Below are positions 202 to 58,995 of a stretch of DNA of 64,000 nucleotides, piece by piece. Position 1 is the first letter of the stretch. Each line of letters opens with the position of its first letter. The DNA is from Pohlia nutans. Taxonomy: Eukaryota; Streptophyta; Bryopsida; Bryales; Mniaceae. The stretch covers positions 2,666,001 through 2,730,000 of the forward strand of contig CM040088.1 in NCBI GenBank assembly GCA_022496805.1. The letters run 5' to 3'. Position numbers and translations under genes: made by a program. The notes beneath the pieces were generated by a model. The model was not told where the DNA came from. It searched no databases and worked only from the letters and a program-made list of their open reading frames with translations.

Positions 202-1068
202 TTAACCCCTAAATGTACAGATCCTTTGAACAGAAGTAGATACTAGCCTCAAGAATAGATAATAGCATGGCTTAGATGTATATGAGGTGTACATGAGAGG
301 ATCATTGCAAGTATAAAATCTATCCAACAAATTTGACATACTTGCATTTGGAGGCCTCTCCAATATTATCATCATCTCCCTATCATAATTGATTTGCATT
401 AATTGGTAGAGATTCTAACCCTTTAATGTCCCAATTCAACACTATTTTCAAAGATGCATTATAAAATGTTTGATGAATAACAAAAATAGAGTTAATATAC
501 AAAGCTAAGTTGTAAATGTCAATGTGAAGATCACATATATACAATTGAATTTATTATAAGTTTTACTAATAAATTTCTATTAAAATTTGAAGATTTTCTT
601 TTGAAATTCAATTTAAAATCCCAAATCAACCAAAATAAAGATAAAAATTGTAGTAATAAATTTGGAATAACATGCATTATGAGATGGTATGATTTTCATT
701 ATTTGATTCTACTTATTTTGGAAAATCATGTTTAAGGTCTCACTTTTTGAACTAAAAATGAAACTTGACATAAACCAATTGTGTTGTTTTTCAAAAAATC
801 ACAATATCTTATTTTGAAGATCCATACAATACAAATGATAGTCAAGTAGCACATAATCAAGAGAAATTTGGATAGATGAAAATTGTCCATGTTTGTAGTA
901 AAAAGAACAATTTGAATTTTGTTCATCGTCCACTATGTGGACACATGCGCGTCAAAGGATTAATAGGCTTGCAAAGATAACCTGAATGAAAACCATTCAA
1001 GATTGTATGAGAAAGTTACAAGGCTTTAAATTTTTCCAGTAGCTAGACGCTAGAACATTTAGGGGTAA
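202..1068. mobile_element. TTAA-flanked MITE (family C), interrupted by a second MITE
   Basis: It begins TTAACCCCTAAATG at 202 and ends ATTTAGGGGTAA at 1068 (one T of the final TTAA lost). Its two halves (202-414 and 960-1068) match, in reverse orientation, the uninterrupted 312-bp copy at 30120-30431. The difference in length is a separate insertion at 415-963. No coding capacity. Confidence 0.8.
415..963. mobile_element. Nested TTAA-flanked MITE inside the family C element
   Basis: The insertion is bounded by CTAA (415-418) and TTAA (960-963). The intact sister copy at 30120-30431 has a single TTAA at the equivalent place, so the insertion duplicated TTAA and the left copy later mutated to CTAA. 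Imperfect inverted ends are CCCTTTAATG on the left and CGTCAAAGG on the right. A 6-bp stem hairpin GTCCAC/GTGGAC lies at 928-942 near the right end. Confidence 0.8.
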
Positions 1069-1089
1069 CCAAGATATATAACACATGTC

Positions 1090-1668
1090 TTAACTCCTAA
1101 ATGCCTACAACCCTCTTCAAATTGGGTTGCTTTTGCAAAAATGCATTTTAAAATGCAATTAAGAAGGATATTTTGAACTTGATGTATGAATAAAAGCTGT
1201 GCATTATGAATCTTGTGCATTTTAGATTCTTTCTATAAAGTTAAATCTATGATTGCAATCACCAATATTTTTGAATGGAACTTGAAACTTAGAATTCAAA
1301 ATTCTTTTGTAATTCAATTTTGAATAAGATATTGACAATCTATGGATATAATTTGTTGTGATGGGTTGAAATGTAATACTCTAACTGTAGTGATTTTTGG
1401 AGATTTTTTGGTTGCTTACTTTTATGAGTTGATTTTTTCAAGAGCACATTTAGACTAAAATCTTCAAATTTTTTGATGGATCACTGCAACATGAAATGAG
1501 GCATAAAAATTTCACAAATCATCCCCTTTCAAATTAATTCTCACATGCATGAAGCTCACTTCCCATAAAATCTATATTAAAAGATTCACACTGCAAAAAG
1601 TGCATGACAGATGAGAAAACGTGGATGAAATGTGTACTTTGTCAAAAAATGGACGATTAGGCAATTAA
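1090..1668. mobile_element. TTAA-flanked MITE, family A (copy 1)
   Basis: Left end TTAACTCCTAAATGCC at 1090. The interior shares the family A core (for example GATATTTTGAACTTGATG and TAAGATATTGACAATC) with the copies at 11215, 21844, 24788, 34256, 43608 and 50670 and the reversed copy ending at 19781. Its last bases run directly into the TTAA that begins the family B element at 1665, and its own right terminal repeat is missing, as if the neighbour had replaced or truncated it. Confidence 0.75.
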
Positions 1669-2208
1669 CCCTAAAGGACAGAGGAGGTAAGGGCAAAACC
1701 TAAATGTGTTATAAAATATTACTTCTGCAACTTTGATGAAGTTTGGTCCAAAAGAGAAAATGAGTAGCACAACGTTTAGTAATTATCTATACTGTCAAAC
1801 TTTCAAAAAATGTTTTAAATACTCATTTAATGAATTTAGAAGCATTCATCGTTGAATATTCCCCCAAATTACAAATTTTATTTTTAGAGCTTGAAATTTG
1901 GTACGATTGGTTAAAACTAAACAATTTTTTCTTCAATGGTCGATGGCAATTTTTTTAAAGGAGAAAATATCATTAATTTCCCGTAATAGTAAGTTTTATA
2001 ATTGTAAAACAATATTGAGGTCTTTGTCTTTGAAAAATTATCCTCGGTGGAGTTAAACTAGAGTTGACATGACTCAAATTGGGTTGGAAAGTAGACTTAA
2101 TTTCCGATTTGAAAATATTTTTTATTTTTTATAAAAATATAATTTTCATCTTGGGCAACCTGTAAAAAAATGGCAGCAAAAATGGTCGTTTGGACACTTA
2201 GGGGTTAA
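1665..2208. mobile_element. TTAA-flanked MITE, family B (copy 1)
   Basis: It starts TTAACCCTAAAGGACAG at 1665 and ends CACTTAGGGGTTAA at 2208 (544 bp). The interior matches, inverted, the copy at 19778-20327, including the block around GAAGTTTGGTCCAAAA. The right end keeps a decayed form of the family B subterminal hairpin (AAAATGGTCG). It is the transposon copy nearest upstream of the HD-Zip gene, ending about 1.35 kb before its ATG. Confidence 0.8.
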
Positions 2209-3567: not shown

Positions 3568-5088
3568 ATGGCGAACCGAGGCTACAGTGGTTCCAATGTC
3601 ATGCTAGTGCGAAACGAGAGCTCGAACGACGTGTCCTTGGTTGCCATGCTTGCTTCTTGTTCTCCTGTTGCGCTTCAAGGTTAGTTATCACAGTGCACAG
3701 ACGGGATAAATGTATATATATTCTCTCTTTCTGTTGGGAATCTCAACACTACATTACTTTGAATCTGAAACTAATTTTCATTTGTGAATAGGAGTCCCCG
3801 CATTGAACGTGCAAATCGTGTTCTAACGCAGGAGTAACTTGCAGGAAGAGAGGTTTTTAGAACACGATTTTTTTTGTGTATGATATGAGTCAGAATTGCT
3901 CTCTGTTTTTGTCACAGTAAAATGGAATGTGCTGGCAATCTCGTTTCTCTAACTGATCTTCTTTGGTCACGCATTGTGCAGTGCAACGCGCAGGTGGAGG
4001 CTTAGAGGATGCCGTGGCCAGTTGTGGTCAAAAGCGCTTTTTCTCTCCCATGTTCGAAACGTCGACGGGTGAAGATCCAGGGGAAGAGGATACCGGCGAT
4101 GACTGCACACAACACAGTGTGGAGAAGAAGAGACGACTTTCGTTTGATCAAGTCCGGTCACTCGAGAAGAGCTTCGAGATAGAGAATAAGCTTGAGCCGG
4201 AGAGGAAAATGCAGCTTGCAAAGGATCTCGGGCTTATGCCGAGACAAGTGGCGGTGTGGTTCCAGAACCGCCGCGCACGCTGGAAAACCAAACAGTTGGA
4301 ACGGGATTACGACGTCCTCACCGCCGATTACAACCGCCTGAAAACTGATTTCGATGCAGTCCTCGAGGAGAAGCAGAAGCTTCAGATCGAGGTGAGAGGC
4401 TTTAATCACACCGCGACTCTTCCACTTCTAACCATTGATAAAAATTCGTAAAACTCTCGCGAAGTTCGATATTTGTTGAACCTACTCTGTATTCGTGTCA
4501 CATTGCATCCAATGGAAATCTTGAGCTCATCGTTCCGTAATCGTTGCGTGCTTCGCAGCTGAATTTAATTTCGATTCTTTTTGGTTGTCTTGACAGATTG
4601 ACTGCCTGACGGGAAAGCTGCAAACCGCACAGGCCGTCATCAGCGATCTACCAGAGAAAGACAAGAAATCGAAAACACCGTCGGATGAGTCTGTAAAGCA
4701 GGAAATGCTCCCCGAGCTTACGAATGGCACCAACGAGGTGTGTAAGGAGGAAGGTTCCGGAGAAGGTTCTGGGGAAGGTTCGAGCCGGGAGACAATAAGC
4801 TCCGGCAGTGCTTCCAGCGAAATACTGAATGTGGACAGCCCTCGCACGATGGACAGTGGCGGCCCGGCCCCGCTCGTCGTCCCTATCAATTTGTATGCAG
4901 AGATCGACTCCAATGCCATCATTCATTTCCAGAGCGACAACCTCTGCGACCAAATGCTCCCTCCTCTCGATTGCTCGCGCATCATTTCCGTGAAGCCTGA
5001 GGATGGCTCCTTCCAAGACGACTCTTGTAATTACATTTTGTCGCAGTTGGAGGATGAGAAGGGACTACCGTGGTGGGAATGGCCGTGA
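3568..5088 (+). CDS. HD-Zip class I transcription factor (three exons, 337 aa)
   Basis: A nuclear homeodomain-leucine zipper protein expected to bind CAATNATTG-type pseudopalindromes as a dimer. Exons by splice-site and frame agreement: 3568-3679, 3982-4391, 4597-5088; both introns are GT-AG (phase 1, then phase 0). The start at 3568 (MANRGYSG) is the first in-frame ATG; the frame upstream of it has no ATG. The homeodomain covers about residues 85-145, with recognition helix [10 protein letters not shown] at 130-139. The zipper follows at once, with heptads L143, L150, L157, V164, L171 and L178; the second intron falls inside it after residue 174. The C-terminal part holds Gly/Glu/Ser repeats, a long acidic stretch and the end PWWEWP, a tryptophan-rich tail typical of HD-Zip I activation motifs. 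No START or MEKHLA domain is present, which excludes classes III and IV, and no N-terminal EAR or zipper-flanking CPSCE motif, which argues against class II. Confidence 0.93.
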
Positions 5089-11214: not shown

Positions 11215-11789
11215 TTAACTCCTTAATGTCTACAACCGTCTCTAGTTTTGGAAAATTGCAAAGGTGCATTATAAATTGCAATGAAGAGGGATATTTTGAA
11301 CTTGATGTATGAATAAAAGTTGTATGTTGTGAATTTTAGATTCTATCCATACGATTAGAACTAGGATTGTAGTCACCAATATTTTGGTATAAAATTTGAA
11401 ACTTAAAATTAAAAATTCTTTTGTAATTCAATTACAAATAAGATATTGACAATTTGTGAATGTAATTCATTGTGATGGGTTGAAACGCAATACTCCAAAT
11501 GTAGTGATTTTTGGAATTTTTTTGGTTACTTAATTTTATGAGTTGTTTTTCCAATAGCACTTTGGAACTAAGATCTTATAATTTTTTAGTGAATCACTGC
11601 CATATGAAATGAGGCATAAAAATTTCACAAAGCATCCCCATTCTACTTGGTTCACACGTTCATGAAGCTAACTTCCCATAAAATTTGTAGTAAAAAATGC
11701 ACCCTACAAAGAATGCATGATGAATGAGAAAACCGAATTTGCTTCTGTACATCAAGCAAAATATGCTTGGTTAGGTGGTTAGGGGTTAA
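11215..11789. mobile_element. TTAA-flanked MITE, family A (copy 2)
   Basis: Left end TTAACTCCTTAATGTC at 11215, right end GTTAGGGGTTAA at 11789 (575 bp), same interior as the other family A copies. Near the right end is the hairpin CAAGCA-AAATA-TGCTTG (11753-11769). Its stem differs in sequence from that of the copy at 24788 (CGTCCA/TGGACG) but is equally complementary. Confidence 0.85.
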
Positions 11790-15430: not shown

Positions 15431-15437
15431 TACTATA

Positions 15438-16286: not shown

Positions 16287-16853
16287 TTAACCCTTAAGCG
16301 TCCACATTACAATTATCTAGTCAAACCGCATCAAGTCCTCACATTTTAAAATATATTATATTTTTTGGTATTTTTCTCATACAAGGTATTGTTAAACCGA
16401 TTTATCCTGATTTTTTCATAATTGTCTAAATGAAAAAAAAGATTATAAGATATTTCAAAGTTTGATTCTTGTGTAAATCATAGTAATTACAAAAAGCTTA
16501 GAATAGTATGAATTTTTTAAGAAAAATGTAAATAATAGTGATGAACAACAAGGTGTAGGTGGCATGCTTCTTGAGCTTACATAAAAAAGAAATTCAATAG
16601 AAAAACGTTTTCAGCATTGTATATTTGAATTTTAGGGTTTTGGACTTTAAAGTGCTATAAAAATCGCAATTTTAACAATTTTGAAGAACGGTAAATTTGA
16701 CTAGAAAGTAGAAGGTAGCCCCCACACTTTTTTAGTTGGGACCATTTTCATTTGAAATTTTCATTTTCATTTGGAACTAGGTGGAAATCAGTGTTTAACT
16801 GAGAAACGATCAAAACATCGCTCCACGGGGCTCCTTGCATGCTTAAGGGTTAA
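16287..16853. mobile_element. TTAA-flanked MITE, family D (uninterrupted copy)
   Basis: Left end TTAACCCTTAAGCGTCC at 16287, right end GCTTAAGGGTTAA at 16853 (567 bp). The interior matches 34892-35795 along its length, including AAGGTGTAGGTGGCATGCTT. It serves as the empty-site reference for the insertion at 35307-35662. Confidence 0.85.
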
Positions 16854-18610: not shown

Positions 18611-19169
18611 TTAATCCCTAAAGGACCAACCATTCATTTTTTGGATGGTTTTTGATCAAAGACCCAAAAAATCAAGTATTTTAATTTTGTTGGAGTTAGT
18701 GTTTTCATTAGATGTTTAAGTTGAGTTATGATACATCTTTTGACCGTTGGAATTGAAGAATAGACTTCATTGAAAGATTTTACAACATCAAGAAATTTGA
18801 AATTTGAGTGTCCAAAATACAAAGGGCTTTCTAAAGATGCTCCAATCATGTGTCTCTATTAATTTCTTCACTTTTTTTTACTTGATTTTTTTTAAAACTA
18901 CTTTTAATTATAACTTTTATCTACTTTAAATATATTGTTGATATTAAATTTGACAAAGATATATTTATTTTGAATTTTTATCTTGTTTAAATGATTAAAT
19001 TTGTAAATATTTCAAATCTTCCAATCATGTTGAAATTTTTGTCATACCTCCATAATGTTGATGACTAACTATGGAAAATTATAAACGATTGAATGTGATA
19101 ATTATTCCAAGTATGCAGATCGTAGGGCTTTTGACTTTTACAAAACATGTGAGGACTTTTAGGGATTAG
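18611..19169. mobile_element. TTAA-flanked MITE (family H)
   Basis: TTAATCCCTAAAGGACC at 18611 pairs with GAGGACTTTTAGGGATTAG ending at 19169 (559 bp, last base of the right TTAA changed). A 9-bp stem hairpin, AACCATTCA-TTTTT-TGGATGGTT, occupies 18628-18650 next to the left end. Confidence 0.7.
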
Positions 19170-19304: not shown

Positions 19305-19781
19305 TGCCAACTTTTATAGGAAGTTAGATTCATGCACGTGTGATCCGATTAGAAAGGGGATAATTTTTGAAGTTTTTATGCTTCATTGCATGTTGTAGTG
19401 TTCCACCCAAAATTTCAAAGATTTTAGTCTAAAAATGCTCTTGAAAAAGTCAACTACTAAAATTAAGCAACCAAAAAATCTCCAAAAATCACTGCACTTA
19501 GAGTATTACATTTCAACCCATCCCAAAAAATTTCATTATTAGATTGTCAATATCTTATTCATAATCATGTTACAAAAGAGCTCTAAATTTTAAGTTTGAA
19601 AATTTACACACAAATATTGGTGATAGCGATCGCAAATCTAACCGTATGGATAGAATCTAAAATTCATAATGTACAACTTTTATTCATTCATCAAGTTGAA
19701 AATATCCCTCTTAGTTGCATTTTATAATGCATCTTTGAAAAAGTGCCAAATCTGAAAAGGGTGAGAACGTTTAGGGGTTAA
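19305..19781. mobile_element. TTAA-flanked MITE, family A (copy 3, reversed and truncated)
   Basis: Inverted relative to the other family A copies; it ends ACGTTTAGGGGTTAA at 19781. Its hairpin-bearing end is missing: homology stops near 19305. The last TTAA (19778-19781) is also the first TTAA of the family B element, so the two share one target copy. Confidence 0.8.
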
Positions 19782-20327
19782 CCCCTAAGCACTCAAACGA
19801 CCATTTTTTGGTCGCTGCCCGAATCTAACGGGCTGCCCGGAACAAAAAAGTATTTTTTTGAAAAAATAAAAAATATTTTAAAATACTACATCAAGTCTAC
19901 TTTCCAACCCAATTTGAATTTTGGCAATCCGAGTTAAACTCCACCTGGGAGAAATTTTCAAAGTAGATCACCTCAACATTGTCTTAGTGTTATAAAATTT
20001 GCTATTTGGGGAAAGTAATGATGATCCCTCCATCATTTCTTTTGCTTTTTTGAAGTTTACAATAGATAGCCCAACTTTAACCAATCATACTAAATTTTGA
20101 ACTCTAAAATTGAAAATTATAATTTATACAAATTCTCAAAGGTTAATGCTTTTAAATTCATTAAAAAATGATCTAAAGTTAATTTTGGAAGTTTGACTGT
20201 ACGGATAATTTGTAGAGATGATACTCTACATTTTGTTTATTGAACCAAACTTCATCAAACATATGGAAGGCACATATTATAACACATCTATGTTTTGTGC
20301 AATACCCCTCGGGCTTTTAGGGGTTAA
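19778..20327. mobile_element. TTAA-flanked MITE, family B (copy 2)
   Basis: Begins TTAACCCCTAAGCACTC, ends GCTTTTAGGGGTTAA (550 bp), inverted relative to the copy at 1665-2208. A perfect hairpin, CGACCA-TTTTT-TGGTCG, lies at 19798-19814 near the left end, followed by GCTGCCC as in the third copy at 53741. Confidence 0.85.
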
Positions 20328-21843: not shown

Positions 21844-22383
21844 TTAATCCCTAAACGTCGTCACCCCTCTCCAAATTCGACAGTTTTGCAAAGATGCATC
21901 ATAAAATGCAACTAAGAGGGATATTCTAAACTTGATGTTTGAATAAAGGATGTACATTATAAATATTAGATTCTATCCATATGGTTAGATTTGCGATTGC
22001 TATGACCAGTAATATTGTAAAAAAATTGAAACTTGAAGTTCAAAAATATTTTGTAATTCAATTACAAATAAGACATTGACAATTTGTAGATGAAATTTGT
22101 TGTGATGGGTTGAAATGTAATACTCTAAGTGTAGTGATTTTGAGTTTATTTTCTCATGAGCACATTTAGACAAATCATTGAAATTTTAGGTGAATCACTC
22201 CAACAAGAGACATAAAAATTTCACAAATCATCCCCTTTCTAATTGAATCACACATGCATGAAACTATCTTGCTATAAAATTTTGTAGTATTTCTTTTCCT
22301 TGCAAAAAGTGCATGATGGATGAGAAAAAGTGGATGAAATCTGTACATCGTCCAAAAAAGGGATGGTTGGTCCTTCAGGTTAA
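21844..22383. mobile_element. TTAA-flanked MITE, family A (copy 4)
   Basis: Left end TTAATCCCTAAACGTCG at 21844; the right end is decayed (CCTTCAGGTTAA at 22383). The family A interior is present with a short deletion around the GATTTTTTGGTTGCTTAATT block. The subterminal hairpin has lost pairing. Confidence 0.8.
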
Positions 22384-23174: not shown

Positions 23175-23617
23175 TTAACCCTTAAGTGTGCAGGTGGACC
23201 ATAGTGGTCCATGGTTCAGCTCATATTGTGAAAAACTTGTGGCTAATGGCTGAATTGAATTGGATGTTGAACATCAAATTTCTGTGCATTGTAATGTAGA
23301 GAATTGTGGACTTTTCAAAAAAATAAATGGAATATTTTTGTAGATTTTGTGGCCTGATGAATGGTTGTTTATACATATTTGTATAAATACCAGTGTAGAT
23401 ATTCCTCTAGAATGCATGTACTCTGTGGATGGCAGTTGTACTAAATCATCTCACAAAATTCTACCAAAATTCCCACATCTCATTGTTCCATACGCGTGTG
23501 TGGCAAAAAAATTCAGGTTCAAAAAGTCATTTTTGGGGCATTAACTTATTGGCATTACCAAAAAGACCTCCTTGTATTCACTTCCTTCAAACATACATCT
23601 GCGCATTTAAGGGTTCA
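23175..23617. mobile_element. TTAA-flanked MITE (family I)
   Basis: TTAACCCTTAAGTGTGC at 23175 and GCGCATTTAAGGGTTCA at 23617 (443 bp; final TTAA changed to TTCA). A perfect 7-bp stem, TGGACCA-TAG-TGGTCCA, lies at 23195-23211 beside the left end. Confidence 0.75.
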
Positions 23618-24787: not shown

Positions 24788-25361
24788 TTAACCCCTAAAC
24801 GTCCTCACCCCTCTCTAAATTCGGTAGTTTTGCAAAGATGCATCATAAAATGAAACTAAGCATGATATTTTGCACTTGATTTATGAATAAAAGCTTTACA
24901 ATATCAATTTTAGATTCTATGTATATGGTTAGATTTTCGGTTGCTGTCACCAATATTTTTGTATAAAATTTGAAACTTGAAATTGAAAATTCTTTTATAA
25001 TTTGATTACGAATAAGATATTGACAATTTGTACATGAAATTTGTTGTGATTGGTTGAAATGTAATACTCTAATTGTAGTGATTTTTGGAGATTTTTTGGT
25101 TGCTTAATTTTATGAATTGACTTTTTTAAGAGCACTTTTACACAAATCTTGGAAATCTTGGGTGAATCACTACAACATGAAATGAAGCATAAAAATTTCA
25201 CAAATCATCCCCTTTCTAATCGGGTTACATGTGCATGAAGCTAACTTTCCATAAATATATAGTAAAAAATCCATGGTGCAAAAAGTCAATGACGAATGTG
25301 AAAACTGTATTTGATTTTGTACATCGTCCACTTTCTGGACGGTTGAACGTTTAGGGGTTAA
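24788..25361. mobile_element. TTAA-flanked MITE, family A (copy 5, complete)
   Basis: TTAACCCCTAAACGTCC at 24788 and GAACGTTTAGGGGTTAA at 25361 (574 bp): both ends intact. The right end has the hairpin CGTCCA-CTTTC-TGGACG (25325-25341). The best reference copy of the family in this window. Confidence 0.9.
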
Positions 25362-30004: not shown

Positions 30005-30119
30005 TTAACCCCTAAACAACCATGCTCATCCTTGAAATATTATCACTTTTTGTGATGCTTTCAAGAACGCAGGTATATCTCTCAATTGGTGTTTATGTAG
30101 AAAATTTCATCGTTGAAGC
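30005..30119. mobile_element. Left end of a TTAA-flanked element
   Basis: TTAACCCCTAAACAACC at 30005 is a clear terminal repeat. No matching right end is seen: the next TTAA is the start of the family C element at 30120, which either truncated it or sits inside it. Confidence 0.55.
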
Positions 30120-30431
30120 TTAACCCCTAAACGTCCCAGCGTCCAGAAACTGGACCACGAACAGATTCGAAGCCTTGTAACTTTCTCATACAACCTCGGA
30201 TGATTTTCATCCAAGTCACCTTTGAAAGCCTATTAAATTCTCTACCAATTACTATAAATCTCTTGTGATGGGGAGTTGTTGAATAATATTGGAGAGGCCT
30301 CCAACTACAAGTATGTCTAATTTGTTGGGTAGATTTTATGCTTGCAATGGTCTTCTCATGTACACCTCACGTACATTTGAGCCATACTAATATCTACTTC
30401 TGTTCAAAGGGTTGGTACGTTTAGGGGTTAA
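30120..30431. mobile_element. TTAA-flanked MITE, family C (complete, 312 bp)
   Basis: TTAACCCCTAAACGTCCC to ACGTTTAGGGGTTAA, both tips intact. The inverted, interrupted sister is at 202-1068. The hairpin GTCCAG-AAA-CTGGAC lies at 30141-30155 near the left end only. It provides the empty site that proves TTAA duplication for the insertion at 415-963. Confidence 0.9.
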
Positions 30432-30827: not shown

Positions 30828-31744
30828 TTAACCCCTAAATTTTTGAGCGACCATATTCTGGTCGTTCCACTTTTTGGGCAGCCTCCAGGGACCTCATACT
30901 TTTAAAATTTTCAATGAAAATTTCAGTGTAGCTTCCAAAAACTACACTCTACATGTCGCACTTCGTTTCATGTCATTCCGATAAGTCTTGCAAAAGTTAT
31001 AAGCATTTGAAGTTTTTGAAGCGAGATCGGGCAGCAAGAATTTTTTTATTTTTTACTCTTTTTCAAAATTTCTTTTTTGATTCATGATTGGTTGATCTTT
31101 ATCTACAAATGAAGCTTTAAATCTACCCATTTTGAGCAATGGGATAAAAGTTATGAGGAGATTTGTTTTTTGGGCAGTTTGGACAAAAAAAACTTTGAAG
31201 CTCATTTCTAAACTCAATTTTCAATATTTTTTAATGAAATAAAAGGCACTAGGTGAAGATTTCCAAGTACAACATTCTCACCGTTAAGATTGACATTTTA
31301 CAATTCCATGTCAAACTTATTAATGATTTTCTTTTTCCTTTCACTTTGTACCCACTTCTAGTAATTGTTTTATGAAAAAATTAATATGAGCTTTTTTCTT
31401 ACAATATTTTATATTTGAAGACTTAACTCAATTGTTAACATGGCCTTGCCATTCATTGAATTTCTAACCTATTCAAAAAAAAGATATTAATTTCTAAATT
31501 TCAAATTTGTCACCGGATTGAACCCCAAAAAATCTTCTTTTGCAACTTTGATCCTTATAATCTAAGAATCTAATGGTCATTTTGCTCTCAAATTTTGTGT
31601 TCTCATGAAAATTCAAGTTGGGTATTAGATCTTACGGTTAAATGATGAAAAAACTAAAAAACATATGATTTCTTCTGCAACTTCCAAATGCTGCGTTTTT
31701 CATGGTTTTTTGTGAGAATACGGTCCTGGTCCTTTAGGGGTTAA
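30828..31744. mobile_element. TTAA-flanked MITE, family E (917 bp)
   Basis: TTAACCCCTAAATTTTTGAG at 30828; right end CTGGTCCTTTAGGGGTTAA at 31744. The hairpin CGACCA-TATTC-TGGTCG (30848-30864) uses the same stem as family B although the interiors are otherwise unlike. One of the longer members, still without an ORF. Confidence 0.8.
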
Positions 31745-31981: not shown

Positions 31982-32558
31982 TTAACCCCTAAAGGACCGT
32001 AAGGCCCCCACGCGGCTTCTAGAACTAGAAAGTGAGGAAATTCGGGTTCTTGGGCTTTGATTTGTAGGATGAGCAACAAAGAGACCCTGGCTCTTTTTGA
32101 GCCAAATCTGTAGGTACTTCTTGATCGGAAATTCATCAAGTGAGCGATTTTTGGTGATTTTTTTGAGTTGTACAAAGGGTATCTAGGCGTCACTTCAGAC
32201 CCTTATATCTTCCTCTTCACACCTCCAAATTACTTGAAATTTTTTGTACATGTTTAAAATGATGATTTCTACTCACAGTAAAAATTTCAGAATTTTTGGA
32301 GCATTTTTGAACAATGCGACTTCAGCATGTGTACAAAATACCCCAAACAAGTTCCATCAATCTTCTCAACGGTGGCATTTTCTAAAAATTATGCGATTTT
32401 GTTGATCTTTTTTTCATAAAAAAACTATGTAAGTCTTCTTTAATTTCAACAGTGCCGATCGTCAAAATTACCCCACACCAATGAGGAGTTGAGCTTGCTA
32501 CAAGAGCTAGTCAAGAAAACAAGAGCTAAGTTCAACACCCCCCGTCTTTAGGGGTTAA
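31982..32558. mobile_element. TTAA-flanked MITE, family J (577 bp)
   Basis: TTAACCCCTAAAGGACCG at 31982 and GTCTTTAGGGGTTAA at 32558. The interior is not shared with another copy in this window. A minus-strand ORF (31966-32193) inside has no protein-like character. Confidence 0.75.
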
Positions 32559-33346: not shown

Positions 33347-33935
33347 TAATCAAGGAACATATCATGATCATTAGGTTGAGCAGATAGCTTGAATTTTGGA
33401 GCGGCGGTACAATTGTGCGTTGGTCCTTCTTCTTCCGCACCACCTCCACAACACAGTCCAAAAGCGATAACAATCTAGCAATTTCTCACCCTAAACTCTA
33501 AAGAGATTGTTCCATTTTTGGGCTTTTGCAAATTGCAGGATGAAATCTCACGTATCTGCACATATCCGCATGATGGAAATGAGAGAAACAAAATGGTATC
33601 CTAGTTTCTTCACAAAAACTCCAAAATGTGCTAAGATTCCTCGAGCGTTTAGAGCATGAAAAACTCCCTTAGCGATGCACCATTGATTCGACGGAGGGAT
33701 TGTGTAGCGTAATCCCTAACGGAGGGATTGTGTAGGTTTTGGTACCTGAGAGGAAACACGATTTGAGGCACTTGGAGTAGCTGTTTGAAGTTGCATTTGT
33801 TCCAGTGGAAGCCAAATTCACTCCAAACTCAAGACATATCACAGACGTAGCTCTTACCGTGGTAAGCATCCGCCAGTGCTTAGTGGAAGAAAGATCGAAG
33901 CCTCTACAAGGGCTTTTTTTGTGGGCGTTTAGGGA
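33347..33935. other. Flank of the helicase fragment, no gene assigned
   Basis: A minus-strand frame (33198-33473) overlaps the helicase relic and may include a further decayed piece. GGAGGGATTGTGTAG is duplicated near 33693 and 33720. Confidence 0.3.
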
Positions 33936-33939
33936 TTAA
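33920..33939. mobile_element. Solitary right end of a TTAA element
   Basis: GGGCGTTTAGGGATTAA ends at 33939. No partner left end could be matched between the helicase relic and this point. Confidence 0.4.
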
Positions 33940-34255: not shown

Positions 34256-34824
34256 TTAACCCCTAAATGCCTTCAGACCTCTCTAAATTTGGAGAGTTGC
34301 AAAGATGCATTATAAAATGTGACTAAGAGGGATATTTCGAACTTGATGTATGCATAAAAGTTGTACATTATGGATTTTAGATTCTATCCATACTGATAGA
34401 CTTGTGATTGCAATCACCAATATTTTTGTATAAAATTTGAAACGTGAAATTCAAAATTCTTTTATAATTTGATTATCAATAAGATATTGACAACTTGTGG
34501 ATGAGTTTTATGTGATAGGTCGAAATGTAAAACTCTAAGTGTAGTGATTTTGGAGATTTTTTGGTTGCTTAATTTTATGAGTTGATTTTTTCAAGAGCAC
34601 TTTTGATTTGTTTTGAACTAAGATCTTAGAAATTTTTGGTGGAAATGTGTGGCATGAAATGAAGCATATAATTTTCAAAAATCAAATCACACGTGCATGA
34701 ATCTATCTTGCCATAGAATTTTGTAGTATTTTGTTTACTTGCAAAAAGTGCATGACAGATGGGGAAACAAATTTCAATTTTGTACATCAAGCCAAAAACG
34801 CCTAGTTAGGCAGTTAGGGGTTAA
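34256..34824. mobile_element. TTAA-flanked MITE, family A (copy 6)
   Basis: TTAACCCCTAAATGCC at 34256 to GCAGTTAGGGGTTAA at 34824 (569 bp). The interior is colinear with the other copies. The hairpin is partly decayed (CAAGCC-AAAAA-CGCCTAG), showing the family can keep intact tips after losing the stem. Confidence 0.85.
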
Positions 34825-34891: not shown

Positions 34892-35795
34892 TTAACCTTT
34901 TAAGTGTTCACACTACATTTACCTAGTCAAATCTCATCAATTTCTTACATTTAAAAATATATTATATTTTTTGTTATTTTTCTCGTGTAATTTATTGTTA
35001 AACCGATTTATGTTGATTTTTTTAATAATTATTTAAATAAAAATGAATTTAATAAGACTTTTCAAAGTTTTTCTTTTGTAATAGTCATAGTAATTACAAA
35101 AATACCTAAAATAATATTAAATGTTTAGGAAAAATGTAAAAAATAGTGATGAACAACAAGGTGTAGGTGGCATGCTTCTGGAGCTTACATAAAAAGAAAT
35201 TCCATTGAAAAAAAAATCTCCATTGTATATTGGAATTCTAGAGTTCTGAGCTTTAAAATGCTGTAAACAACGCAATTTTGACAAATTTGAAGAATAGTAT
35301 CATACTCTACCCCTAGGTTGGGCAAAAAGGTGCCTAACAATTATTTTAATGTGCCGAAAATTTTAGCCAGATCCGTAGGAAAATTTTGAAAAACGTAAGC
35401 ATTCTTTATGAGTAATTTGCAAGATTTTAGGCACTGCTATCAAAAACCGTTGGAAATCATTCATCTAGTGCAAATTACAACGGTTTAGGGAAAATCTTGA
35501 ATTTTACTTAACATCTTACGTTGTCACATTCATGGTGTAATTTATGAGATTTTAGGCATTGTAGTTCCTAAATTTTTGAGATTTTAGGTAAAAACCTCCT
35601 ATAAATTATGGACATGATAGAATATGCAGTAAATAATTATTTTTTGCCCAACCTAGGGGTAGATTACGGTAAATTGAACTAGAAAGTAGAAGATAGCTTC
35701 CACACTTTCTTAGTTGGGACCATTTCATTTGAAATTAGGAACTAGGTGAAAATCAAACATGGCCCCACAGGGCTCCTTCCACGCTTAGGGGTTAA
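34892..35795. mobile_element. TTAA-flanked MITE, family D, interrupted by another MITE
   Basis: TTAACCTTTTAAGTG at 34892 to ACGCTTAGGGGTTAA at 35795. Colinear with 16287-16853 except for the insertion at 35307-35662. Near the right end GCCCCACAGGGC can form a GCCC/GGGC stem. Confidence 0.85.
35307..35662. mobile_element. MITE with CTACCCCTAGGTTGGGCA inverted ends, nested in family D
   Basis: CTACCCCTAGGTTGGGCA at 35307 pairs perfectly with TGCCCAACCTAGGGGTAG at 35662; the match extends into A/T runs (22 bp). Comparison with the intact copy (GAAGAACGGTAAATT near 16683) shows the insertion point. ATAGTA before and ACGGTA after the element suggest a 5-6 bp target duplication with two transitions, so a few bases outside the listed borders may belong to it. 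Confidence 0.75.
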
Positions 35796-39748: not shown

Positions 39749-40065
39749 ATAGGGAGTGTCACACCTGCTCTGAGAAGTTTGATTCTCTGAAGATTGAGTT
39801 GCTTGGGAGATAATCGTGGAGCCAATCCTGACCATTCTCCATGAAGAAGGTGACTCCCCTTGAGGCCGTGTGAAGAATGAGAATGGTCATGGCTTCTCAA
39901 ACTTCTTCACAACTTCTCAACCTTCACGCCCATTCTTCACCTCCAGAGAAGAAGAATGAAACTTGTCAATCTTTAGAGAATGTGTCCTCCACAATTCAAG
40001 GAGAAAGTGCCACATACGCATTCTGTGAAGATTGAGAATGGAAAAAAAGAGGTGTGATACCCCTA
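39749..40065. mobile_element. 310-bp MITE, inverted copy downstream of the RAF2-like gene
   Basis: TAGGGAGTGTCACACC at 39749 and GGTGTGATACCCCTA at 40065 form the inverted ends. It matches the intron copy at 36891-37209 over its full length in reverse orientation. Confidence 0.8.
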
Positions 40066-40916: not shown

Positions 40917-41284
40917 ACAAATTACAAAACACGCAATTCGCTATTTATGCACTTGGCCAAGTGCGCTCATTTCATAAGCATATTTGACTTTAAAAAAAGT
41001 TGGTTAAATATTTCTCTAAAAAACATCAATGTTGTCTTTCTTCAATCCCTTACATTGTAAACAAAATAATTAATTTAATTATTTTTTATTCTTATCTTTA
41101 TCTTTTCTTTTTTATCTTGATTTCTTTCTTGTCTTCTTTCTTGTCTCCCTCTTGTCTTTCTTCTTGTCTTCTTTTTGTCTTTCTTCTTGTCTTTCTTTTT
41201 GTCTTCGTTGTCTTTTTCTTCTTCTACTTTTTCTTCAGTTGGGGGTGCTGAACCCTAAACAATGGAAGCAAGCCAACAAAAATG

Positions 41285-41330
<46 letters not shown>

Positions 41331-42872
41331 TTTTTTTTTTTTGGCCGTGGGGTGCTGTTGAACCCCAAAATGGCAGCTGCCCAAAACAAAAAACAAAATA
41401 AAAATAAATAAAAAAATTGGCCGTGGGGTGTTGCTGAACCCTAAATGGCAGCCGCCCACCAAAAAAAAAAAAAAATTACTTTTTTTGACTTTTTCAAAAA
41501 TTTCTATTTTTAGGCGCTGGGGTGCGCGGCCGCGCACCCTAAAGCCCTCTCATCTCCCTCATTTCTATCTTCATCTCCCTCTCCATCTCTTCTCCATTCC
41601 TATCTTCATCTCCCTCTCCATCCCTTCTCCATCCCTTCTCCTTCTTCTCTCCATCCCTTCTCCTTCTTCTCTCCATTCCTTCTCCATCCCTTCTCCTTCT
41701 TCTCTCCGTCCCTTCTCCTTCTTCTCTCCATCCCGTCTCCTTCTTCTCTCCATCCCGTCTCCTTCTTCTCTCCATCCCTTCTCCTTCTTCTCTCCATCCC
41801 TTCTCCTTCTTCTCTCCATCCCTTCTCCTTCTTCTCTCCATCCCTTCTCCTTCTTCTCTCCATCCCTTCTCCTTCTTCTCTCCATCCCTTCTCCATTCCT
41901 ATCTTCATTTCCCTCTCCATCCCTTCTCCTCTCCTCTCCCCTATACCGTAGTACCATAGCAGATTCGTCCAAAAATAATTCTAAAAATAAAAAACGTAAA
42001 AATTAGAAAATTCTGAAGACAGAAAAACGAAAATAGAATAAATTAGTTTTTGCAATATTTTGTTATTTCTAAGCTAATTAAGGTCATTTTTACTGATTTT
42101 TTGCTAAGAAAACGAAAATTGAGAAATTCAGTTTTTGAGAGGCGAACCTTATTTTTTCAAAAAAAAAAAATATTCGTTTGCTAGGTGGCGAACTTGCTAT
42201 GGTGTTACGGTATATATGAGGAGAGGGGAGGGATGGAGAGGGAGATGAAGATAGAAATGAGGAAGATGAGAGGGCTTTAGGGTGCGCGGCCGCGCACCCC
42301 AGCGCCTAAAAATAGAAATTTTTGAAAAAGTCAAAAAAAGTCAAAAAAAAAAAGTTTTTTTTTTTTTTTTTTTGTTTTTTTTGTTTTTTTTGGGCGGCTG
42401 CCATTTAGGGATCAGTAGCACCCACGGCCACAAAAAAAGAAATTTAAAGAAATTAAAAAATTAAAAAATTAAAAAAAACATAAAAAATTCTTTTGTTGGC
42501 TTGCTTCCATTTTTTAGGGTTCAGCATGCCCATTTGAAGAAAAAGTAGAAGAAGGAAAAAACAACGAAGACAAAAAGGAAGACAAGAAAAAAGACAAAAA
42601 GAAGACAAGAAGAAAGACAAGAGGGAGACAAGAAAGAGGACAAGAAAGAAATCAAGATAAAAAAGAAAAGATAAAAGAAAATATAAAAGAAAAGATAAAG
42701 ATAAGAATAAAAATAATAAAAATAATAATTTGTTTACAACGTAAGGGATTGAAGAAAGACAATAATTGTCGGTTTTTAAAAAAAAATGTTACACAAGAAA
42801 AATTATGCGCTCGGGGACCAAGTGCATGATTATATTGCCAAGTGCGTGAATAGCGAATTCTGTGTTACAAAC
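40917..42872. mobile_element. Two-kilobase fold-back element with pyrimidine minisatellite
   Basis: The left arm (about 40917-41975) and right arm (about 42190-42872) are inverted copies. Matching landmarks are ATTCGCTATT...GCACTTGG with its complement; the CTTTCTTCAATCCCTTA block; GTGCGCGGCCGCGCACC (itself palindromic) with CCTAAAGCCCTCTCAT; and TATACCGTAGTACCATAGCA against TGCTATGGTGTTACGGTATA. Arms carry long A and T runs and purine or pyrimidine tracts. The left arm is longer because of the minisatellite at 41620-41905. Frames here encode only low-complexity Arg/Glu or Ser/Leu/Pro strings and are not genes. The superfamily is not clear. Confidence 0.75.
41620..41905. repeat. Minisatellite, 22-bp pyrimidine unit, about 13 copies
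   Basis: The unit TCCATCCCTTCTCCTTCTTC + TC repeats with occasional changes (CCGTC for CCCTT, a short CATTCC variant). One strand is pure C/T apart from one A per unit. The right arm of the fold-back has no such array, so the expansion happened after arm duplication or was lost there. Confidence 0.85.
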
Positions 42873-43607: not shown

Positions 43608-43975
43608 TTAACCCCAAAACGTCCTCACCCCTCTCCAAATTCGGCAGTTTTGCAAAGATGCATCATAAAATGCAACTCAAAGGGATTTTTTGCACTTGAT
43701 GTATGAATAAAAGTTGTGCATTATAAATTTTAGGTTCTATCTATACGGTTAGATTTGCGATTGCTATCACCAATATTTTTGTATAAAATTTAAAACTTGA
43801 AATTGAAAATTCTTTTGTAATTTGATTACGAATAAGATATTGACAATTTGTACATGAAAATTGTTGTGATTGGTTGAAATGTAATACTCTAAGTGTAGTG
43901 ATTTTTGGAGATGTTTTGGTTGCTTAATTTTATGAGTTGACTTTTTTAAGAGCAATTTTACACTAATCATTTTCG
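43608..43975. mobile_element. TTAA-flanked MITE, family A (copy 7, right end lost)
   Basis: TTAACCCCAAAACGTCC at 43608 and family A interior up to about 43970, where homology stops abruptly after AAGAGCAATTTTACAC. The hairpin-bearing end is missing. Confidence 0.75.
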
Positions 43976-44462
43976 ATTGTTGATACTATAAAATATTCAA
44001 CCTTGAAAAAAATGCCCCCAAGTACCCTACGCTCTAATCAGATTTGCTAAAAGATAATCCAAAAAATAATAAAAAATGGCATGTACTAAAATTTTCCAAA
44101 ATTATAAGGTGATATAATTGAATAGCATAGAAAATATTAATGAAAATAATCTAAATTCATAAAAATTCAAGATACTTGCAAACAACTTACCCAAGTACAA
44201 ATTACAACACTTTCTAATGAAAAGCTCAATGAGGTGTAACAAACAAAGCCTATGATCAAAAGTCACGGGGAAATATCAGATATCACAAGAATGAAATTTG
44301 AAGAAAATATAATTTCACTTAATGAATGAAAAATAACCCTAAAAATAATTCACTTTGTATTGGACATGGCTAATGAATCTAACCCGAGGGTAGGATATGC
44401 TAAATTACTTACTTTGATGGTTTCTACCTTGAAGTCAATTTGGAATGGGACTCACATGTGAG
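43976..44462. other. AT-rich intergenic DNA, nothing recognised
   Basis: No feature supported. Confidence 0.4.
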
Positions 44463-50669: not shown

Positions 50670-51246
50670 TTAACCCCTAAATGCCTAGAGCCCTCTCCAA
50701 ATTCAGCAGTTTTGCAAAGATGCATCATAAAATGCAACTCAGAGGGATGTTTTGAACTTGATGTATGAATAAAAGTTGTACATTATGAATTTTTGATTCT
50801 ATCCATATGGTTAGATCTATGATTGCTATCACCAATATTTTTGTATAAAATTTGAAACTCAAAATTCAAAATTCTTTTGTAATTTGATTACATATAAGAT
50901 ATTGACAATTTGTGGATGAAATCTGTTGTGATTGGTTGAAATGTAATACTCTAAGTGTAGTGATTTTTGGAGATTTTTTGGTTGCTTAATTTTATGAGTT
51001 GACTTTTTCAAGAGCGCATTTAGACTAAAATCTTCAAATTTTTTGTTGAATCATTGCAACATGAAATGAGGCATAAAATTTTCACAAATCATCCCCTTTC
51101 TAATTGGTTCACATATGCATGAAGCTAACTTCCCATAAAATCTACAATAAAAAATCCACTCTGCTAAAAGTGCATGATGGATGAGAAAACATGGATGAAA
51201 TTTGTACATCGTCCAAAAAATGAACGCTCACGCAGTTAAGGGTTAT
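50670..51246. mobile_element. TTAA-flanked MITE, family A (copy 8)
   Basis: TTAACCCCTAAATGCC at 50670; right end CGCAGTTAAGGGTTAT at 51246 (last base changed). Hairpin CGTCCA-AAAAA-TGAACG (51210-51226, one G-T pair). It lies 590 bp beyond the VTE2-1 stop codon. Confidence 0.85.
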
Positions 51247-51760
51247 GATTTGAAAGGGTTATGATTTTTACCAAAGGTATAACTTACAATGAAGAACATT
51301 ACAGTGGATAAAAATCATCCATGTATCTAAATTTAAATTTTTTTGCTACACCATGGTAATACATGTTGAACTTGTAACTCTAATAAAACACTCAATTTTT
51401 AGATTTTTCCAAAAATTCAAAGTGGAATAGAAATTAGACTTAGTAAGCTTCATTTTATTAGTTAAGCTCAAATGCAATAGAACCCATTTCCATGGCCCAA
51501 ATTAATTCTAGTAGAAAAAACATAAAAACCCAAAACACACTACATAGTCAACCATTTTTACTACTCTATTTGTAATTGGGACCCCATGTAATATCCAAAA
51601 ATAGCTTGAATGATCTGAATTTAACTTGAAGAGGTACCATGATCAACAAAAATCCTTCACGAAAATAATTGGATGAAAACAATCCACGTAGCAATTGGAA
51701 TTGAATAGTGAGTTACATTCCTAAGCCAAGTTTTGGCCTCCCCAGACATTTAAGGGTTAA
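51247..51760. mobile_element. TTAA-type element, family G (right end and body)
   Basis: Ends ACATTTAAGGGTTAA at 51760, with the hairpin GCCAA-GTT-TTGGC at 51725-51737. The body (GTGGAATAGAAATTAGACTT, TTTTTAGATTTTTCCAAAA) resembles 58600-58760. The left end is not clear because it abuts family A. Confidence 0.55.
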
Positions 51761-52193: not shown

Positions 52194-52434
52194 TTAACCC
52201 TTAAAGAATATGGCTTTCTTGATTCCCAGACCCAAAATCTCTTTCAAACTTCATTTTAAGTATGATTCTCTTTTTAATTTTATTTGGTTCTATTTCAAAG
52301 AAGTATAGATGCCTTAAATATATTTGTTTTGGCATTTAAGAAACCCCATTTGATTCAACAGAGTAGAAGTTATGAGCAAGATTTTCCCCAAAAAAAGTAA
52401 TCCCGTGGGGCTTAGTATGTCCTTTAAGGGTTAA
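52194..52434. mobile_element. Small TTAA-flanked MITE (241 bp)
   Basis: TTAACCCTTAAAG at 52194 and CTTTAAGGGTTAA at 52434 form a 13-bp perfect inverted repeat, the most symmetrical tip pair in the set. The interior is unique in the window. Confidence 0.8.
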
Positions 52435-52688: not shown

Positions 52689-52714
52689 TTAATCCCTAAA
52701 TGTTTGAGGGTTAA
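52689..52714. repeat. 26-bp remnant: two TTAA tips facing each other
   Basis: TTAATCCCTAAATG is followed within 4 bp by TGAGGGTTAA. It looks like a TTAA element reduced to its ends by internal deletion. Confidence 0.45.
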
Positions 52715-53740: not shown

Positions 53741-54901
53741 TTAACCCTAAGCTCCCAATCGACCATTTTTTGGTTGCTGTCCATTTTCTCGGGCTACCTA
53801 GGCCCAAATTTTATTTTATTTTTCAAAATAAAAATTTGATGTCATATGTAATTGAGTCTTTTTTCCAATGAAATTGAAATTATATGCATACAATCAAAAC
53901 TCCACTTAGGGGAATTTTTCAAAGTGAAACACCTCAATGTTGAAATCAGCTTCAACACTTCGGATAGGCTTGCCAAAAAATCTAAACCAATGAGATTCAT
54001 TGGGCACCTCAAAGAAAATTTTGTTCAATTCACATGGGTTGCATGCCATGAGTTGTCGGCTCTTCCAATTAGACAAGAGTTGAAAGGATAATCCAATTTA
54101 GCCAAAATCTCTTGCTTTCCTTTGTACCACCAGTAGAAAATGCGGTCCAAAATGATTAACCACATGGGACAAAATTGGGTCATAAGGGACCATTTTGTCC
54201 TTCACGACTAGTCTCGAAAATCAAGTCTCATCGAACAACCAGTCATATGGGACACGCTGAGTCAGATTTATTTCGGACGGCGCACCAACAATTCACTAGT
54301 CATATAGGACGGTTGAGCTCCATCATGCAAGCCGGTGGTCCACCGCAATTCGGCATATGGGACACTGGTCCACCATGACTGGCTCACAAGGGACACCGCC
54401 TACCACGTAAACCATTTTCCAATCAAGGAGGTGCGCTTGAATCAAAGGGGACATGAAGACAATTTCTGCAAAATCATTTCGGACTGTCATTTCTAGTAGT
54501 GTACCCCACCCATTACAAGGTCTTTGAAAAAATGCTAATGAATTGAACATCTTGTCAAATTGAGTCATGCATCTTGTTAACTACCTCATCTTGAGGATGG
54601 TCAAAAATGGCACATCATTTCAACTTCTTTCCTTTTTTTTGGTTTGGGAGCCCATCAAAGCAAGGCTGCCCAAATTCTTCGGGGCCCTGAAATTGCAAAA
54701 TTTCAACTTCATTTGCTATTATCTTGACATTTGTACAGTCAAATGATTTAAAAATTTAGGGGATAGTTTACAAGGCCTAGGAGTATAGGATTCCTATAGT
54801 TGGAAAGTGAAAAAGGGTTTTGAAAATTATTTAGAGATCAACTAAAATGACCAAAATGAGCAGTTTTGGGTGGGGGACCTCCTCGAGTGTTTAAAGTTTA
54901 A
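53741..54901. mobile_element. TTAA-flanked MITE, family B (copy 3) with extra internal sequence
   Basis: TTAACCCTAAGCTCCC at 53741, hairpin CGACCA-TTTTT-TGGTTG (53760-53776), then GCTGTCC as in the copy at 19778. The right end is decayed (GTGTTTAAAGTTTAA, 54901). About 54110-54530 contains GC-richer sequence absent from the other copies, probably an insertion. Confidence 0.6.
54163..54398. repeat. Six degenerate CATATGGGAC motifs
   Basis: YCAYAWGGGAC-like strings occur near 54164, 54180, 54242, 54299, 54353 and 54386, four of them 33-62 bp apart, in a GC-richer patch inside a family B element. On the plus strand the patch is part of an open frame (54175-54378) in which SHMG/SHIG recurs, but no known protein is recognised. 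Confidence 0.5.
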
Positions 54902-56395: not shown

Positions 56396-56626
56396 AATTT
56401 AATATGGATTAAAAGAATTTGATCATCATATTTAAAAATGAATGACATGATTTACATTTGTTCACATGATCTTTATTTGTCATTGCACCAATGTCATTAG
56501 AGTTTTAAGCTCATGCTCAAAATGAGTGAATGAGTTGATCTTACAAATATATCAAAGGAGATGAAGAGCAAAGAAATAAGGGTGGCGACTGAAAAATGGG
56601 ATTGCTATAGGCACCATTATATTTTT

Positions 56627-56662
<36 letters not shown>

Positions 56663-57486
56663 TTGAGACTTTTTGGATCCTTAGGGAAAACAAAAATGGA
56701 ATAAAATAATGAATTTATGTGCAAATGATTGTTGAGAACAAATTCAAATGTTGCTTTTTATTTTAGTCTAAAATACATAAATATATACATTTTTAATTTT
56801 TTTTTTGAACAAGTCATGTGCAAATTGTGTAAGTTTTTGTTCAAATCTCAAAAAAAATTAATTAATTTCTATTCAATTCTATTCCTATCATCAACTAGTT
56901 TATCCAAATTTTGGTAAAAATTAAATTTTTATGATTATGGTCCACTTAGATCAAGTAAACTTTAGGAATTTCAAATTTCAAATTTACCTTGTCATTTTCA
57001 GAATATATGTTTAGATATTTCATATTTCATATTATTTTATTGTTCATTCAATAATATTATTTATTGAATGACATAAGCAAGGTTAAATGAAACTAGGGCT
57101 CCGCTTCTCTCCACACCACCATGAAATTGAATAAGATTTGAAATGCTAAATTACTTCACATAATGATCTTTGAGGGCGGAATGGAACAATCATGAGAAGA
57201 TCATTCAAGGATGTAAAAGGCTAGGTTAATCATAAAAAGGTTACATCATAGAAAACCCTACCCTAGAATTGTCAACTGTCGGCTCATGGATGGCAGGCTC
57301 ACTTACAAACCCTACAACCGTTGGAAATCCACAAATGGAACCTATAGTTGTCAATACCATTTTTCTATACCAGCTCTGACCTATAGTCGTCATTGGAATT
57401 AGTGTATATAATTTGTATTAAATGCTACCAAGTAAACACTAAACATATAAGAATATTAGCGTAAACTTCTTTTCTATGTGACTTGT
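56396..57486. other. AT-rich intergenic DNA with a TTA microsatellite
   Basis: (TTA)n spans about 56629-56662. No gene recognised. Confidence 0.5.
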
Positions 57487-58995
57487 TTAACCCTAAATTC
57501 CTGGGCCTATCACCTTGGTAAAAAACTTTGGATTGTGGGTAAATGCATGCTTTGGTGGCTCAATAGTGGCATACGTACATTCCCTAAAAGTCCATATCAT
57601 ATTTTACATATAATGTTGAATATATTTATTTATTTATTTTTCATAAATTCTTTGTAATATATAGAACTCAACCACTTTAAAAAAAAATCTATTAACTTTC
57701 ATACATATTTTCTAATAATATTTTATAAAAAAACTGATAATTTCACTTGAATATAACTAAATATAAAAATAACTTACATAAAAATTAAGTCTATACAAGT
57801 GCAAGCCCACCTAAAGCTTAGATATCTTAACATGCTAAAAAATATGTTGTGCTGAAAAAATCTATTTCCATGCTTTAATAGACATTCAAAAACAACACCT
57901 AGTTTTTACCACAAAAAAGTCCACAAGTACATGATAAATTATGTGTTATCTTATAAAAGTATATTTTTGAGTTTCTCATGATTTAGCACATTAAGTAATG
58001 ACTCACTAACAAACATTTTCAACAACCTTTATTAAAAAAAGTCCATATGTGAAATGTTGGCAGCTTGTCACAGTCACTATTCTCGAGACTATTCTATAAC
58101 TAAAAAGTCCTTAATTTCTTTATGATGATGCCATTTCCAAAAGAAAACTATTTTTATAGACGAATATCAAGGCCAAAATGTGTATACAAATTCTCATGCC
58201 AAAATTCTTCATATTCTATTTTTTATAAATGTTTTAATGAAGGCACCATAGTGAATAATCCTCTGTGACATCAAAAGTGAGACACCAAACCATGCATTCA
58301 CCCTTGTAAGCTATATTTCACCACAATTATCATATTTTTCCTACATGAGACCAAATGTCAACTGTAATCTGTAATTTTTTCAAAATTATTAATGCAAAAT
58401 TTAAATTATTATGATTTTTGGAAGTAAGAAAAGTAAAGAAAATTCATATCAATTTCGAAATATATTAAAAAATATGATTTTTTTTTCCAAATGTGTACAT
58501 CACTATGAAAACATCAAGTTGTTTCTTGTGCTCAAAAAAAATTCTAAATTTGGAAATATAAAGGAAAAACCTAAAACTATGGAATACCATTGAGGAGCCA
58601 TGGTAATAGAACTGATCTTGTAATTGCTATAAATCATTCAATATTAGGAATTTTTCAAAATTTCAAAATGGAGTGAAAGCTAGACTTTGTAAGCTACAAT
58701 TTTTTTAGTTCAGCTTGAATTAAAAAATATCATCTCGATGGTCAAAATTGTATTTCAGTTACAAAAACAAATGAAATTGTGAATACACTACACGGTATTG
58801 ATGATTTTGGCTTTCATGAAGCACTAAAATTCATAATCATCTTAATTTGAAATTTTCTATATACCATTTGATTGATTCATCAACAATGTCCAACATCAGA
58901 AAAATACGGATGAAAAAATTCAAATGGATGAAAATTATGGATGATGAAAAAATAAAATCAACTAGATTTTGGTTGTTCAGGCGTTTAGGGGTTAA
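57487..58995. mobile_element. Long TTAA-flanked element (about 1.5 kb), family G
   Basis: TTAACCCTAAATTCC at 57487 and GGCGTTTAGGGGTTAA at 58995. The right half shares sequence with 51247-51760. No transposase-like ORF. The two ends might belong to different insertions, as no other full copy is available. Confidence 0.5.

Follow-up and report, generated by a model that had tools for sequence, protein, structure and literature searches.

Short TTAA-flanked elements of the moss Pohlia nutans are very probably non-autonomous members of the piggyBac superfamily with a palindrome near one end

Transposons of the piggyBac superfamily have been described mostly from animals, fungi and protists. The Trichoplusia ni (T. 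ni) piggyBac element (PDB 6x67/6x68) targets TTAA, has C-rich tips, bears a palindrome at bp 17-33 of one end and encodes a transposase with a triad of aspartates (DDD), and it shares each of these features with the moss elements that we describe here. We examined a 64,000-nucleotide stretch of the Pohlia nutans genome (assembly GCA_022496805.1, contig CM040088.1, positions 2,666,001 to 2,730,000; hereafter the window), in which a sequence-only reading had recognized, between 202 and 58995, a large group of TTAA-flanked miniature inverted-repeat transposable elements (MITEs) with a shared tip and unrelated interiors. We conclude that these elements are non-autonomous MITEs of the piggyBac superfamily, the best explanation as a whole, to which we assign a probability of about 0.94. 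This kind of element is already known; the moss host is new.

Published sources are cited here for the individual passages concerned. In the left end (LE) of piggyBac the palindrome occupies bp 17-33, with its axis at about bp 25 (PMC7351741). The palindrome of piggyBat from Myotis (PDB 9c0f) is likewise confined to one end, at bp 19-30 of the left end with none at the right end, and its sequence is unrelated to that of piggyBac (PMC11707139); piggyBat has three left-end palindromes, whereas we see one common position in the moss. The superfamily is defined by 12-19-bp terminal inverted repeats and a CC[C/T]T terminal motif, and corals, like the moss, hold several families of TTAA-duplicating MITEs (CMITEs), with CC[C/T]T tips, that are linked to piggyBac-like elements (PMC2872659). 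In corals, however, conservation lies in the interior and the tips are variable, whereas the moss elements combine a conserved tip with dissimilar interiors. A 2022 review of land plants has six cut-and-paste superfamilies and does not name piggyBac in the table rows consulted (PMC9033089), and a survey of 2008 has five superfamilies as known (PMC2528002). The superfamily is named for plants, without detail in the passages concerned, in PMC10794571, PMC8086355 and PMC10813416, and a fern genome contains 1230 PiggyBac-annotated pieces covering 122,417 bp (PMC6890710). Our literature searches on piggyBac or TTAA MITEs in moss, bryophyte and plant genomes returned no moss piggyBac paper, judged by titles, abstracts and passages.

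Tips in the window are far in excess of shuffled expectation, and they pair convergently, as the sequence-only reading had proposed. With up to two mismatches, TTAACCCCTAAA occurs 48 times against 9.57 expected (the largest of 100 shuffles held 19), with up to one mismatch 30 times against 0.58, and without mismatch 16 times against 0.02. When each tip is allowed a single mismatch, eight plus-strand tips can be paired with a convergent tip at a distance of 200-1000 bp, compared with none in each of the 100 shuffles. Exact tips are common to different families, and paired elements range from 241 bp (52194-52434) to 1,509 bp (57487-58995, left end tentative). The span first given stops a little short, as a further exact tip lies at 59531, and the matches at 20576, 29061, 29544, 38059 and 41359 are probably due to chance. 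A literature search with the tip letters found no transposon paper, judged on titles and abstracts, and viral contigs scanned for the tip pattern gave one match, probably a chance one. The tip resembles the plant telomere repeat.

Across the assembly (697.8 Mb in 332 contigs), TTAACCCCTAAACG occurs exactly 24,099 times on the two strands, against 7 for a backwards control. The first base is other than T at 963 sites (control 46), and the outermost T is therefore kept in 96% of ends (24,099 of 25,062). A separate 200 kb of the same genome, from contig C1, contains 86 tips with at most one mismatch, 33 of them exact. Nearest convergent pairs, counted mechanically so that some may be false, number 27 and cover 7.2% of that sequence, as against 11 pairs covering 11.3% of the window.

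Self-comparison of the window gave families that we letter A to J, independently of the letters used earlier. Family A has eight copies, as first reported, plus a ninth (A9n) nested within B1; B has two copies, C three (one partial) and E two, and D, F, G, H, I and J are single or partial. The earlier figures of three B, two D and two G copies are not matchable to these letters. Homology does not continue past the tips: in the family A alignment TTAA starts all eight left ends and the 25-base flanks are unrelated, and we therefore regard the A copies as units that moved. The right end is gone in A3 and A7, two of the eight aligned copies. Given a mean identity between A copies of 79% (28 pairwise values from the self-comparison), most of them are old. 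The fourth base of the tip is C in the CCCC form and T in the CCCT form of families E, F and I, while families A and B have the tip in the form AAACGTCC.

Empty sites bear on the target. B2 has a single TTAA where B1 holds the nested A9n, the left TTAA of which now reads CTAA, and the relative of the E1 flank in contig C1 aligns over 145 bases without a gap, at 83% identity, with one TTAA. At the B2 site, two element-free relatives in contig C1 read TCAT and TCAA in place of TTAA, which fits drift and is not a clean TTAA. The search behind these cases took 99 mechanical pairs to 73 spanning matches; among the 25 listed, only the E1 and B2 cases were used, and several others were mis-paired or nested candidates with no clean site. 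In addition, A and C elements abut twice via one common TTAA (A1 with element C1, and A3 with C2), as is expected when one element inserts in another's duplicated target.

No autonomous element was seen in the window, in agreement with the earlier reading. A Pfam scan of 29 distinct open frames (20 of the 27 with at least 110 codons, plus nine shorter ones) found no transposase remnant there, and tblastn of T. ni piggyBac on the window gave a best E of 1.3. The genome elsewhere holds at least 116 piggyBac transposase domains by a PF13843 profile search (116 of 1305 candidates scored), all above the curated cut-off and the best with E 1.6e-81; 78 of the 116 listed matches have no stop in the domain. 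The same profile had no match in any of 14 control genomes.

We fetched nine transposase loci and sought element ends around each gene as 4-bp direct repeats with inverted tips. L048, L049 and L051 had been picked for profile coordinates like those of L047, and these four loci therefore count as one lineage. They are elements of 4427-4590 bp with the 13-bp sequence CCCCTAAAGGACC inverted at both ends, one tip of L051 being one change away from it. In L048 the tip pair ranks first, and in L047 it ties for first place with one other pair; in L049 it comes second, behind a shifted reading of those same tips. The duplicated target is CTAA in L047 and L051 and TTAA in L048 and L049, so that the four copies show TTAA twice and CTAA twice as 4-bp direct repeats between unlike flanks; together with the single-TTAA empty sites, these repeats indicate a TTAA target with a 4-bp duplication. 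Moreover, CTAA has one and the same orientation with respect to the gene in L047 and L051, and may be a preferred target of this subfamily. The terminal repeats of the full-length copies, at 13 bp, agree with the superfamily definition in length; the terminal motif agrees with it loosely, its fourth base being C in the CCCC form and T in the CCCT form of families E, F and I.

The open frames of L047, L048, L049 and L051 run to 764, 779, 779 and 582 codons. In L047-L049 three aspartates align with D268, D346 and D447 of piggyBac and a cysteine-rich C-terminal stretch is present, while overall identity to the T. ni protein is about 24% over 391 aligned positions. The moss elements differ from piggyBac in length (4.4-4.6 kb versus about 2.5 kb), in the sequence of the palindrome and in using CTAA as well. 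A DDE_Tnp_1_7 domain (PF13843) with the DDD triad lies between such ends in the lineage with the AAAGGACC tip. These full-length copies with open frames show later activity, and with the old window copies they bear out the earlier view that activity spans a long period; the transposase within elements with CCCCTAAAGGACC ends likewise bears out the piggyBac assignment. At least one shorter copy, at contig C1:1103529-1104928, looks like a deletion derivative: it retains both L047-type ends but nothing that matches the gene region, and so hints that short forms may arise by internal deletion.

Searched against 5.8 billion proteins, the core of the L047 transposase had 76 matches (2501 candidates scored). 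The closest relatives listed reach 66-68% and are mostly metagenome proteins; five of those listed carry an organism name, all of them from animals and none above 36%, and the listed matches include no plant protein with a name. In the moss itself, the transposases of C17, L045, L046, L050 and L052 are 36-42% identical to that of L047. C17 and L050 are 67% alike, and if they are counted as one, the fetched loci represent at least five lineages sharing 33-42% identity. At the C17 locus (L042-L044, G000:C17:26321800-26329400) a 565-codon piggyBac transposase is flanked by long arrays, inverted to each other, of a repeat of roughly 40 bp and lacks the CCCCTAAA tip, a further end architecture in this genome. 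At L052 a single tip lies 446 bases from the gene, with no partner found.

Many of the window elements carry at one end a short palindrome centred at position 29, counted inward from the start of the TTAA, which corresponds to element bp 25. Nine of the ten families A-J, E being the exception, have one or more copies that pair four or five of five arm positions at this centre. When 26 ends were tested, each family being represented by a single copy and the two sides being combined, position 29 came out first among 212 centres, with a paired fraction of 0.494 at the arm positions against a background of 0.273; none of 2000 shuffles and none of 2000 random sets of window pieces reached this value. 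This test was favoured by selection, as the representatives (A5, B2, C2, E2) and the arm length were picked after the ends had been viewed; the 200 kb from contig C1, which were obtained later, form a sample free of that choice. There, position 29 was the best of 242 centres, with a z of 5.1 in all 86 ends, and again the best, with a z of 3.7, in 40 mutually dissimilar ends. Shuffling produced a best centre as high as the one observed in 0 of 1000 shuffles for the 86 ends and in 2 of 1000 for the 40 ends, and at centre 29 itself it did so in 0 of 1000 for either set.

The palindrome arms vary between families with matching changes in both arms; over the 21 ends taken as R-type, the arm pair 23/35 is AT in 5, TA in 5, GC in 3, CG in 1 and other in 7, a count that leans upward because the R end was assigned by the palindrome itself in single-copy families (and by homology in A, B, C and E). 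By eye, the right end of A9n also shows a palindrome centred at 29 (GTCCA-catag-TGGAC). The other end has no common palindrome, although in families A, B and C one is seen near 58-65 in part of the copies. The moss palindromes match those of piggyBac and piggyBat in place, one-sidedness and freedom of sequence, and from their position they are a putative site for the transposase C-terminal domain. In the L047 lineage, the palindrome of the 5' end is TGTCC-taacta-GGACA, with its centre at bp 24.5 (L051 differs in a single arm base), and the 3' end has a longer one, in L047 GGAGTGTTTTT...AAAAACACTCC, centred at bp 27, both found by eye; both ends therefore carry one in this lineage.

Several observations weigh against the piggyBac assignment of the window elements. 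The tip pair is present at only four of the nine fetched transposase loci, all of one subfamily; the other five (C17, L045, L046, L050 and L052) have no tip pair within 5-7.6 kb, and in L051 the pair is level with four other candidates and was chosen because it carries CCCCTAAA. No transposase with the AAACGTCC tip of families A and B was found, the full-length lineage having AAAGGACC, and the window has no blastn match to the L047 lineage. The best palindrome falls exactly at 29 in only 8 of 21 R-type ends, and within one base in 12. Family E and the tip at 33939 are off-register, the palindromes of A1, A4, B1 and element C1 are decayed, and the other-side ends B1L and C1L (of element C1) also pair four of five positions at centre 29. 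Finally, the two ends of one family have differing palindromes, unlike T. ni piggyBac. We take the window families to be relatives of the L047 lineage with other subterminal sequences, several of them with the AAACGTCC tip.

In the mechanism that we propose, a transposase made elsewhere in the genome would bind the CCCCTAAA tip at both ends, while a dimer of its cysteine-rich C-terminal domain would bind the palindrome 17-33 bp inside one end. The element would then be cut out and pasted in at TTAA, or at a closely similar target (CTAA, for example), with duplication of 4 bp; full-length 4.4-4.6-kb elements with the same CCCCTAAA tip carry the transposase. The families were probably mobilized over a long time by several related helpers that have the tip in common but read different palindromes.

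Alternatively, a single piggyBac helper may move all families by the tip alone, the palindromes being incidental, as the sequence-only reading supposed when it invoked one transposase recognizing a short tip. Exact tips are indeed common across families, and for coral piggyBac MITEs the tip motif with a conserved interior has been suggested to suffice (PMC2872659). This mechanism is weakened by palindromes that stand at a fixed place in unlike families, at bp 17-33, and differ by family with matched arm changes, and by the presence of several transposase lineages, and we consider it unlikely. Because the families share a tip but differ in palindrome, several related helpers that differ in the palindrome read are more probable, any matching of helper to family being putative. 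Whether helper specificity switched repeatedly in a large moss piggyBac radiation, with the tip fixed and the arms of the one-sided palindrome changing together, is in our judgment an even bet; such an arm change is seen within one interior family, where A2 has CAAGC/GCTTG and A5 CGTCC/GGACG.

Readings outside the superfamily fare much worse. A Tc1/mariner (Stowaway) element that duplicates TA and prefers TTAA would leave identical sequence at perfect TTAA sites, TTAACCCC...GGGGTTAA fits either reading, and a different element inside E2 looks TA-flanked. However, L047 and L051 have CTAA on both sides between unlike flanks, where CTAA...TTAA would be expected from a duplication of TA, nearly all ends have T as their outermost base, and the transposases in tip-bearing elements are piggyBac; we rejected this reading as very improbable. 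Kolobok and Sola3 are other superfamilies specific for the same 4-bp target, and Sola1 is entered for Physcomitrella in the 2022 review (PMC9033089). Kolobok requires 5'-RR...YY-3' ends (PMC9587614), whereas the moss ends are 5'-CC...GG-3' (5'-CCCC), an argument that bears on Kolobok alone and on which it was rejected. Against both, the transposase inside matching elements is PF13843, although no search aimed at Sola or Kolobok profiles was made, and we hold either origin to be just as improbable as the TA reading. Helitrons have conserved short ends, unrelated interiors and a hairpin near one end, so that a rolling-circle (Helitron2/Helentron-like) insertion between TT and AA, with the palindrome as its 3' hairpin, would account for the unlike interiors and matched arm changes, but the CTAA/CTAA 4-bp direct repeats, the piggyBac transposase in full-length copies and a palindrome register equal to the piggyBac C-terminal-domain site make this the least probable reading of all, and we rejected it. 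The elements of the window are listed in Table 1.

Table 1. Elements and unpaired tips in the window (positions from its first base)
Feature	Position	Strand	Remarks
B1	202..1069		interrupted by nested A copy; right tip decayed to GTTA; homologous to reversed B2
A9n, ninth A copy, nested in B1	415..963	+	empty site in B2
A1	1090..1668	+	adjoins element C1 via one common TTAA
Element C1	1665..2208	-	
A2	11215..11789	+	right-end palindrome CAAGCA-tattt-TGCTTG
E1	16287..16853	+	flank relative with empty site at contig C1:1132515-1132659
D1	18611..19169		left-end palindrome CATTCA-ttttt-TGGATG at 18631-18647
A3, far end lost	19308..19781	-	TTAA at 19778-19781 common with C2
C2	19778..20327	+	palindrome CGACCA-ttttt-TGGTCG at 19798-19814
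A4	21844..22383	+	
F1	23175..23617		palindrome TGGACC-atagt-GGTCCA at 23195-23211
A5, both tips exact	24788..25361	+	palindrome CGTCCA-gaaag-TGGACG at 25325-25341
Exact tip, no partner found	30005..30016	+	
B2	30120..30431	-	palindrome CGTCCA-gaaac-TGGACC; two element-free flank relatives in contig C1
G1	30828..31744		palindrome CGACCA-tattc-TGGTCG at 30848-30864
H1	31982..32558		
Tip, no sure partner	33928..33939	-	palindrome off-register, centre 33.5
A6	34256..34824	+	
E2	34892..35795	+	foreign insertion inside at ~35303-35665
A7, far end lost	43608..44091	+	
A8	50670..51246	+	
Tip of J-related element	51749..51760	-	
I1 (241 bp)	52194..52434		right-end palindrome TAAGCC-ccacg-GGATTA
Tip, no partner found	52689..52700	+	
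C3, partial, palindrome end only	53741..53960	+	
J, left end tentative	57487..58995		right-end palindrome CAACCA-aaatc-TAGTTG
Exact tip, no sure partner	59531..59542	+	

The window holds several other features. An HD-Zip homeodomain gene at about 3568-5088 is 70% identical to its closest sequences, which are on short contigs, and among named proteins 58% to that of the moss Physcomitrium patens and 53% to that of the moss Ceratodon purpureus, a likeness that points to a moss host. A tRNA gene at 29285-29371 scores 61 bits in Rfam, and ARAGORN gave no anticodon for it. The frame at 33080-33349 matches the DEAH-helicase OB fold PF07717 below threshold (E 5.9e-05, 23.6 bits versus a cut-off of 29.5) and DHX36 in the PDB at only E 0.14; lying inside the unpaired tip at 33939, it is possibly a captured gene piece. 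The insertion in E2, at 35303-35665, has inverted tips CTCTACCCCTAGGTTGGGC and a possible TA duplication, and is a different, mariner-like MITE. Two larger inverted-repeat structures follow, a 3.2-kb unit at 36889-40061 with inverted repeats of about 320 bp and no Pfam match in the frames scanned there, and a 1.9-kb inverted repeat at 40928-42866 with arms of about 700 bp and a central 11-bp tandem array.

With about 24,000 exact occurrences of a single tip form and more than 100 transposase domains, this moss would be a clear land-plant case of the piggyBac superfamily. Its elements are candidates of use in plant genome engineering, and their palindromes permit a direct test of how end specificity evolves. 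If helper specificity did switch repeatedly, the moss would offer, in a land plant, a naturally occurring series of piggyBac end sets that are each distinct from the others.

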